Below are positions 7,737 to 15,559 of a stretch of 64,000 bases of DNA, one piece after another. The position numbers and the translations under genes were made by a program. This DNA comes from Haloferax marinum. GTDB lineage: Archaea > Halobacteriota > Halobacteria > Halobacteriales > Haloferacaceae. The stretch covers positions 2,542,001-2,606,000 of the forward strand of contig NZ_WKJQ01000001.1 of the NCBI RefSeq assembly GCF_009674625.1, written 5' to 3'. Position 1 is the stretch's first letter. Each line of letters opens with the position of its first letter. Below the pieces are notes generated by a model, which saw nothing but the letters and a program-made list of their open reading frames with translations, made no database searches and was not told the origin of the DNA.

Positions 7737-7760
7737 CACTGACTGACCAGTCAGTTAGTG
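7737..7760. promoter_or_regulatory. 24-bp palindrome over the start of the TetR gene (likely operator)
   Basis: The segment reads as an inverted repeat over 24 bases; its inner 20 are CTGACTGACCAGTCAGTTAG, with only two mismatched pairs in the whole palindrome. The right arm contains the GTG start codon at 7758. Size and symmetry are typical of a TetR dimer site, and position suggests autorepression of the TetR-MATE pair. Binding itself is inferred. Confidence 0.75.
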
Positions 7761-12526: not shown

Positions 12527-12715
12527 TCGGCTCCCTCCGACGCAGATTTTTGGCGACGGGAGACACGAGAGACACACCCCTCTGAGCCGACGTCGCCTCT
12601 TTGCTGACAGCTTTTCCCCCGACGTCCCCAGTCTCAGCGCTGCCGACGCTCACGACTCGTGTGTTTCCTATCTAGTCATTTTAGCATTTTAGGCTGTGTT
12701 AACGTACCACAAACA

Positions 12716-12750
12716 TTTATACTCTAGAAGGACATGTGTTACCACATGTC
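12716..12750 (+). promoter_or_regulatory. TATA box followed by a perfect inverted repeat over the start codon
   Basis: TTTATA (12716-12721) lies about 27 nt before the ATG at 12746. Between them and over the ATG is a perfect inverted repeat: GACATGTG at 12731-12738, a TTAC spacer, and CACATGTC at 12743-12750. It could be an operator or a 5'-end hairpin that hides the start codon. Confidence 0.65.
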
Positions 12751-12985
12751 ATCGAAGGATGGACGGCCAGCACCGGCGACGGAGTTCAAAGCGTCTCCTG
12801 CCGTCGTGCCAATCACGGACGTACCACCGGGTGCTCGAGTTCGGCATTTCGACGAACTGAGCGACCGAACACAACACGCACTCGCAACCGCCGCACCGTC
12901 GGGTCGCCTCGACATCGACCCGGCGACCACGAGGCTCTCTCGTGGAGACGTGGTCGTGTTTACAGAGTACGTCCGTATCCAGTAA
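12746..12985 (+). CDS. Small haloarchaeal protein, unknown function
   Basis: A 79-residue protein starting MSSKDGRPAPATEF. The core PITDVPPGARVRHFDELSDRTQHALATAAPSGRLDI and the end LSRGDVVVFTEYVRIQ look like a compact mixed alpha/beta domain; the last segment is a strand pair. I choose 12746 because the TATA box is 27 nt upstream; the ATG at 12734 would sit at or before the expected transcript start. No cysteines or helix-turn-helix are seen. It resembles haloarchaeal small conserved proteins without assigned function. Confidence 0.65.
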   Translation: MSSKDGRPAPATEFKASPAVVPITDVPPGARVRHFDELSDRTQHALATAAPSGRLDIDPATTRLSRGDVVVFTEYVRIQ

Positions 12986-13114: not shown

Positions 13115-13537
13115 ATGGCAGCAGGTGGCGGACAAGGGACGATGACGCTCGCGTTCGAACTAGAGGCACTCAAGCGACTCGCAGAGCCGAGTGCGGCGTT
13201 CGCGGACGCGCGGACGTGGACGAAGTACGTCGGCGTCGTGAGTGAAAAGCCCACGTACGTCGTGACCAACTTCACCCGAAAAGAACGCATCCGTCAGGAC
13301 TTCTTCTCGGGGCCGCGCGGTGTCAAAGAGAGCCTCGAAAACGTGATGGGACAGTTCGACACCGACAGACACGTCTTCGTCGGTACGACCGACGAAGACC
13401 GTTCGCTCGCCGAGCAGACCGACTGGGAGTACCTCCCCGTCGAAGAGGCGGCAGCGGCGGCCGAGTGGCCACTCGCCGGCGACGACGAACCTGTCGAAGA
13501 CCCGTTCGAAGACGATAGCCGGGACGACTGGCCGTAG
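13115..13537 (+). CDS. Haloarchaeal conserved protein (DUF7124-like)
   Basis: A 140-residue protein. The conserved-looking core is MTLAFELEALKRLAEPSAAF, TWTKYVGVVSEKPTYVVTNF and RQDFFSGPRGVKESLENV, followed by an acidic disordered tail ending EDDSRDDWP. I recall this as the DUF7124 type; function is unknown. A T-rich element, GGTTTTCC, about 30 nt before the ATG at 13115 supports that start; an internal ATG at 13142 is the alternative. The last six codons and the stop are the first unit of the 19-bp repeat array that continues downstream. Confidence 0.65.
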   Translation: MAAGGGQGTMTLAFELEALKRLAEPSAAFADARTWTKYVGVVSEKPTYVVTNFTRKERIRQDFFSGPRGVKESLENVMGQFDTDRHVFVGTTDEDRSLAEQTDWEYLPVEEAAAAAEWPLAGDDEPVEDPFEDDSRDDWP

Positions 13538-13699
13538 CCGGGACGACTGACCGTAGCCGAGACGACTGGCCGTAGCCGGGACGACTGGCCGTAGCCGGGA
13601 CGACTGGCTTAGTCGAGACGACTGACCGTAGCCGGGACGACTGGCCGTAGCCGGGACGACTGGCTTAGTCGAGACGACTGGCCCTAGTCGGGGCAACTG
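13523..13699. repeat. 19-bp tandem repeat array, nine units, starting inside a gene's stop region
   Basis: Nine units are visible: 13523-13541, 13542-13560, 13561-13579, 13580-13598, 13599-13616 (18 bp), 13617-13635, 13636-13654, 13655-13672 (18 bp) and 13673-13691, plus a decayed tenth. The consensus is GACGACTGGCCGTAGCCGG. The first unit encodes the last residues and stop codon of the upstream gene (RDDWP, TAG). Two units share the same internal change (CTTAGTCGA), showing that blocks of units were copied together. Confidence 0.93.
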
Positions 13700-13766
13700 G
13701 GCGTCTTCCGCCGATTTTGTTCGTCTATCGAAAGCACTAATCAGCAACAGCACTTCTCTTTCGCTG

Positions 13767-14755: not shown

Positions 14756-15559
14756 TTACAACGGGAGCGGTGCGGCCGCTTCCCACCGGGGGTCGAACGT
14801 CGACCTGAGGTCGGCAGCGAACTCGGGGTCTTTCAGGTCTATCATCGCAAACGCCTGGCCGGGGTCGAGGGGGTTGGGGACCTCGATACAGACTTCGACG
14901 TCGTCGATGAGGTTGAACACACCAGTGAGGTTCTCGGCCGTCCGTACGTGGAACGCGGGATGGTCCGACAGACGCTCCATGTAGCGCTGCCCGACGCTCT
15001 CGGGGAGGCTATCGACGAGGTCCGGCGACATGAGAATCGACACTTCGACGCCCCGTTCGAGCGCCGCCTCCAGTTCTTCGACGACGAGGTCACCGACCAT
15101 CCCGAGGTCGAACTGTGGTGACGGCGTCCCTGCGACCATCGCGAGCGAGTCGTCGGCCGCTGCCAACCGCTCGACGAGGAGGTCGACCGTTTCGTCGTCA
15201 CCGACCGCCGCCGTCCAGAACTGGTCGTGGACCGGTTCTGCGGTGTCGAGTTCGTCGTTCAGTTCGTCGACGACGGCTTCGTACTGCTCCGCCTTCTCTT
15301 CTAACTCCTGTCGCTTGCTCTCTAGGAGACGGTCCAGTGCCATGTCCGGTTCGACGGCGACGTACTTCTTCGGCCGACTCGCCGCCTGGCTCCGGATGAG
15401 GTGGTACTGTTCGAGACTGTTCAACACGTCGTAGATACGCCCCATCGGAACGTCACTCGCCCGCGACAGTTCTTTCGCTGTCGTCGCCCCCGTTCGGAGG
15501 AGTGCGCGGTATGCCCGCGCTTCGTACTCAGAAAGTCCGAGATCTCGAAGACTCGCCAT
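14756..15559 (-). CDS. TrmB-family transcriptional regulator
   Basis: A 267-residue regulator. Residues 3-75 are the TrmB winged helix: LRDLGLSEYEARAYRALLRTG, then TTAKELSRASDVPMGRIYDVLNSLEQYHLI. A coiled-coil-like stretch, LLESKRQELEEKAEQYEAVVDELNDEL, links it to a phospholipase-D-like effector domain containing VELEAALERGVEVSILMSPDLV and DHPAFHVRTA. Family members sense sugars or other metabolites. The start at 15559 is supported by TTATAAC about 27 nt upstream. It lies between mptA (convergent) and the DUF255 gene (same strand, 83 bp upstream). The regulon is unknown. Confidence 0.9.
   Translation of the reverse strand: MASLRDLGLSEYEARAYRALLRTGATTAKELSRASDVPMGRIYDVLNSLEQYHLIRSQAASRPKKYVAVEPDMALDRLLESKRQELEEKAEQYEAVVDELNDELDTAEPVHDQFWTAAVGDDETVDLLVERLAAADDSLAMVAGTPSPQFDLGMVGDLVVEELEAALERGVEVSILMSPDLVDSLPESVGQRYMERLSDHPAFHVRTAENLTGVFNLIDDVEVCIEVPNPLDPGQAFAMIDLKDPEFAADLRSTFDPRWEAAAPLPL

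Follow-up and report, generated by a model that had tools for sequence, protein, structure and literature searches.

The window analysed here is a 64-kb stretch of a Haloferax genome (G000:C1:2542001-2606000), in which the gene for a 79-amino-acid protein, probably leaderless and hereafter called gene A, occupies positions 12746–12985 of the plus strand. It is preceded by a gene encoding an FAD-dependent reductase and followed by a DUF7124 gene and mptA; a tandem array of about 10 copies of a 19-bp unit, also showing a period of 56, extends across the DUF7124 stop codon (13516–13704). Gene A is present in all 15 Haloferax genomes and in 103 of 170 genomes of the family, and the nearest named relatives, judged by the 79-amino-acid protein, are H. 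elongans (85%) and H. larsenii (82%). We take its H. volcanii counterpart to be HVO_2346, a guess obtained by counting back from mptA as HVO_2348. Acidic and basic residues number 10 each in the protein, which matched no Pfam or NCBIfam family; two homologues and one diverged homologue were likewise without a match in Pfam. Its predicted structure is a strand-strand-helix-strand-strand arrangement of moderate confidence (pLDDT 74), for which a fold search returned 18 matches, the best with an E-value of 3.1; there was no PDB match, and no known DNA-binding fold was seen in the model. Gene A is thus not an obvious self-regulator, which supports, as far as family searches and the model reach, the view of the initial annotation that the protein has no helix-turn-helix and that an operator at this place would need a separate regulator. 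No description of gene A or of the element in front of it was found in literature searches that covered neither supplementary files nor subscription journals.

The inverted repeat GACATGTG-TTAC-CACATGTC lies at positions 12731–12750, with no strand assigned. Direct reading of the Haloferax genome bears out what had been noticed at the outset, namely two perfect 8-bp arms (12731–12738 and 12743–12750), a TTAC loop (12739–12742) and the ATG of gene A (12746–12748) within the right arm. Upstream, on the plus strand, lies the promoter block AAACATTTATA (12711–12721), whose TATA-like TTTATA (12716–12721) occupies -30 to -25 relative to the ATG. Perfect arms alone prove nothing: the window contains 16 inverted repeats that combine perfect 8-bp arms with a loop of 3–8 nt, compared with a mean of 15.7 in 20 dinucleotide shuffles of the 64 kb. 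The repeat could then be a functionless palindrome arisen by chance, and in line with this its arms are perfect only in this genome among the 15 Haloferax, the other 14 carrying two or three mismatches in the 8-bp arms. Conservation therefore had to decide.

The region upstream of gene A has diverged in Haloferax except for two blocks at constant spacing, AAACAYTTAT and RTGTGTTAYCAY-ATGTCATC, and the spacing of the promoter block is kept in 15/15 genomes. Several of the nine neighbouring genes that served as controls are also broadly conserved upstream, so that the distinctive feature is the sharp footprint within a diverged region rather than conservation per se. The element itself is conserved in all 15 Haloferax, and the loss in close relatives that the initial annotation had named as evidence against it was not observed. 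The surroundings of gene A were then obtained for all 103 family genomes and 112 loci were aligned. Eleven of these were excluded: one with runs of N (L093), two with no element (L143 and L145, the latter a second copy in G067), one that is displaced (L026), one with no start codon at the site (L121) and six from genomes already counted (L024, L025, L028, L031, L106 and L080). The remaining 101 aligned sites, 99 of them distinct, define an element from -17 to +7. Its most constant columns among the 99 are T at -16 (96), G at -15 (97), G at -8 (92), T at -6 (95) and C at -3 (98), the T at -16 being lost in this genome; codon 2 of gene A is NCA in 90/99 sites, and 98/99 score at least 8 bits on a 17-bp part, on what is their own training set. 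In the window, the corresponding 24-bp dyad element, a putative operator, spans 12729–12752 (no strand assigned), with its axis between 12740 and 12741, and the perfect inverted repeat sits on this axis. In one locus (L042, from G104), gene A looks frameshifted relative to its relatives, with the promoter element intact.

A coding origin of the conserved block was also considered, in which it would encode an N-terminal extension of gene A (MCYH) from an upstream start. An in-frame ATG or GTG is indeed found at -12 in 15/15 Haloferax, and changes in the two variable columns are synonymous. Outside Haloferax, however, other genera have in-frame stops between the -12 position and the ATG (L032 and L042), which refute the extension there and uphold the start codon of the 79-amino-acid protein. 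A start at -12 would moreover lie too near the TATA, and the same block precedes an unrelated gene described below, which makes the extension scarcely tenable.

When all axes from -20 to +9 were scored on the consensus of the 99 sites, the best was -5.5, exactly the axis of the initial annotation, its sum over 14 pairs being 11.75 and that of the runner-up 4.37; none of 2000 column permutations was as good, their maximum being 11.22. An arrangement tried earlier, RTGNTA-N5-TANCAY centred at -9, was dropped, as it reached 0.21 compared with 11.75. The axis at -5.5 also came top for Haloferax alone (13 distinct sites, 0/500 permutations). In this genome 10 of the 12 pairs are symmetric, a value reached by only one other of the 99 sites; the 13 distinct Haloferax sites have 7–10 (7–9 in the other Haloferax) and the gene-A sites average 6.6, compared with a background mean of 3.17. 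Four hexamers fit RYGNYR, two on the plus strand at -17 and -10 and two mirrored at -6 and +2, in 78, 58, 91 and 86 of the 99 sites, respectively, the background being 3% per position. In the window these half-sites are H1, AGGACA (12729–12734, -17 to -12, plus strand), degenerate in this genome; H2, GTGTTA (12736–12741, -10 to -5, plus strand); H3, GTGGTA (12740–12745, -6 to -1, minus strand); and H4, ATGACA (12747–12752, +2 to +7, minus strand), which falls inside codons 1–3. No covariation between partner positions was detected on either axis tried, nor at the variable pair -14/-4 of the gene-A sites, so that the symmetry is a feature of the consensus that compensation does not prove; covariation is not something a protein-binding site must show.

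The same repeat could act in RNA, where a transcribed left arm would fold over the ATG and control translation. The 24-nt strand does fold to -11 kcal/mol (z -2.9, with 1/200 shuffles as good), and 73.8% of the cells on the two arms form standard pairs in the 112 sites. However, the arm positions do not covary (385/500 shuffles reach the score), and the promoter geometry points elsewhere. An archaeal TATA at about -30/-29 implies initiation near the ATG. Since the first TATA-like match begins at -30 in 73/99 sites and at -29 in 20/99, initiation near the ATG is expected, which places the left arm upstream of the start of the message. In H. volcanii, 72% of protein-coding transcripts are leaderless (PMC4983044). 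Two loci (L030 and L026) have their start codon 8–9 nt further downstream, and the distance between element and TATA is unchanged; the element thus tracks the TATA and not the start codon, and in L030 the +3 position, freed from being the third base of an ATG start, is A, as symmetry predicts. TATA spacing and the moved start codons favour a DNA operator, and the hairpin appears quite improbable.

The initial annotation had proposed a search for the same motif in front of other genes. The exact palindrome has one hit in all in this genome; with up to three mismatches there are 63 hits per strand, below the 107 of a reversed control, and the core TGTGTTACCAYATG with up to two mismatches gave 16 hits compared with 14 in its control. 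A sequence-only model (R1) was built from 89 of the 99 distinct gene-A sites, after exclusion of ten whose TATA was shifted or which fitted poorly. In 14 of the 15 Haloferax genomes, its next-best hit after gene A precedes a gene for a 68-amino-acid zinc-ribbon protein unrelated to gene A, which is the third hit in the remaining genome (G013). The element abuts the ATG of this gene and lies at the same place as in gene A in 15/15 Haloferax, so that the motif does occur before another gene, of the HVO_0649 family. Two of the zinc-ribbon proteins were scanned and matched NF041911, the NCBIfam entry for HVO_0649 family zinc finger proteins, with 99.7 and 104.2 bits (cut-off 70). In this genome a second HVO_0649-family copy (L302, G000:C1:1562157-1562348) stands without the element.

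At an E-value of 0.02, R1 matched 115 of 167 family genomes, leaving 52/167 without a match. By eye, 15 of 40 further places precede an HVO_0649-family protein (one of them in Haloferax), 10 precede diverged gene-A homologues, all with DUF7124 downstream, and the remaining 15 are either scattered or without a clear gene. Across the order, the zinc-ribbon family was found in 174/293 genomes, and 50 loci were examined; a site of at least 8 bits lies within 67 positions in 35 of them, compared with 1.4% of 494 control windows from Haloferax, and 15/50 have no 8-bit site. The axis at -5.5 ranked first in both zinc-ribbon sets: in the 27 sites from the family with P 0.036, and in the 22 from the order sample, where it is nearly tied with -8.0, with P 0.056. 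The half-sites at -17, -10, -6 and +2 fit RYGNYR in 24, 21, 16 and 1 of the 27 family sites, respectively, H4 being the one that fits a single site. With a dyad conserved on the same axis and a second gene sharing the element, a chance palindrome is very improbable.

A second model (R2), restricted to the element and trained on both genes, gave no further consistent target in Haloferax other than a weak one, an element-like site before an ABC substrate-binding gene (L249) in 8/15 genomes (E 0.27–0.30). Element-like sites were also seen before a TrkA-like gene in two g6 genomes (L251 and L252) and before a gene for a 173-amino-acid membrane protein in two g21 genomes (L222 and L223). In many f7 zinc-ribbon genes (L260, L271 and L258) the element is present twice in tandem, with 15 bp between the copies and the upstream copy overlying the TATA region; in L262, L263 and L264 this upstream copy is the only one kept.

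These searches bear on another explanation, in which the element is an unusually strong initiator or -10 region, a class of core promoter read by a general factor or by a TFB/TBP variant and needing no specific regulator. Such a class would show the fixed position that the element has where transcription is expected to start, and half the symmetric positions touch the ATG. Nevertheless, the models find only two genes consistently in Haloferax, the element is a 24-bp dyad and it occurs in tandem in f7, so that we regard a core-promoter class as unlikely.

Conservation, the symmetry of the consensus, sharing by two genes and the fixed spacing to the TATA are all directly established. The inverted repeat is this genome's copy of a 24-bp DNA element that is conserved and is probably a repressor site. 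We favour, with a probability of about 0.7, an operator that spans some 24 bp (-17 to +7), at which an unnamed regulator would repress a two-gene regulon in Haloferax. Between the operator and the hairpin left side by side in the initial annotation, conservation, the two genes, the fixed TATA spacing and the symmetry favour the former, and the TATA geometry and lack of covariation disfavour the latter. On the operator reading, a dimeric or tetrameric regulator would bind up to four RYGNYR half-sites, two per arm, 7 bp apart and symmetric about -5.5. With transcription presumably starting at or near the ATG of gene A, the operator would lie across the start site and the opening codons, and a regulator bound there would keep RNA polymerase off the start; it is from this position that we infer repression. 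Gene A and the HVO_0649-family zinc-ribbon gene would form the Haloferax regulon under one common regulator, protein binding being likewise an assumption of the operator reading. Against an operator speak the missing covariation, the poor fit of H4 and the weak axis at the zinc-ribbon gene, the T at -16 lost here, and the 15/50 zinc-ribbon loci and 52/167 family genomes left without an 8-bit site or an R1 match, respectively. A more detailed version, to which we give slightly less than even odds, would have all four half-sites spread over both the transcription start and the ATG, with the ATGNCAY of gene A as part of the operator, and a regulon of about two genes extending over several haloarchaeal families under an undescribed regulator.

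An operator in a promoter is ordinary in kind; this element is real, old and common to two small-protein genes. It would tie two small proteins with no annotated function into one old circuit, would reach into the opening codons of a leaderless gene and offers a bait sequence for finding the regulator in a tractable archaeon. For one of the two proteins, Table 2 of a H. volcanii study lists a swarming defect upon deletion (PMC6562870).

Several candidate regulators and known sites were compared with the element. A TrmB-type DUF7436 gene lies nearby (14756–15559), and DUF7436 is found in 156/167 family genomes, a near universality that makes it uninformative; one genome, 99% complete (G129), has the element and no DUF7436 match, and this gene is not supported as the regulator. 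The OxsR motif is CG-rich, and OxsR was rejected. Elsewhere in the window, a second palindrome, TGACTGACCAGTCAGTTA (7740–7757), kept in 15/15 Haloferax, resembles the gene A element in lying between a TATA and a leaderless start, a GTG at 7758. It differs in sequence, and the downstream gene, which we take from its sequence to be of TetR type, looks like its own repressor, so that this palindrome looks like a self-regulating TetR operator.

CdrS of H. volcanii is a small conserved haloarchaeal regulator with a symmetric motif, and ribbon-helix-helix proteins can read steps of 7–8 bp; however, 15 of its 18 sites lie 41–110 nt upstream of the start, unlike this element, and CdrS was rejected as the regulator, HVO_0649 being absent from the ChIP-seq targets in Table 1 (PMC8406309). 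The H. volcanii CsmR motif TATCA-N4-TGATA shares with the element a similar pentamer half-site adjacent to the TATA in a haloarchaeon, but its half-sites are in the opposite order and CsmR has 65 peaks compared with two genes here; the main text of that paper makes no mention of HVO_0649 (PMC13286277). By eye, the CsmR motif is also absent from the gene-A consensus. In Thermococcales, TrmBL1/Tgr binds the glycolytic motif TATCAC-N5-GTGATA (PMC4158304), likewise an archaeal inverted repeat near promoters, and the half-site GTGATA/TATCAC of this motif resembles the RYGNYR of the element described here. In that system, binding downstream of the TATA represses (PMC10817205). The order of the half-sites is again opposite, since RTGNTR comes first and YANCAY last in the consensus described here, and whereas the Thermococcales motif serves sugar genes, this element extends over 24 bp, has up to four half-sites and stands before two genes for small proteins.
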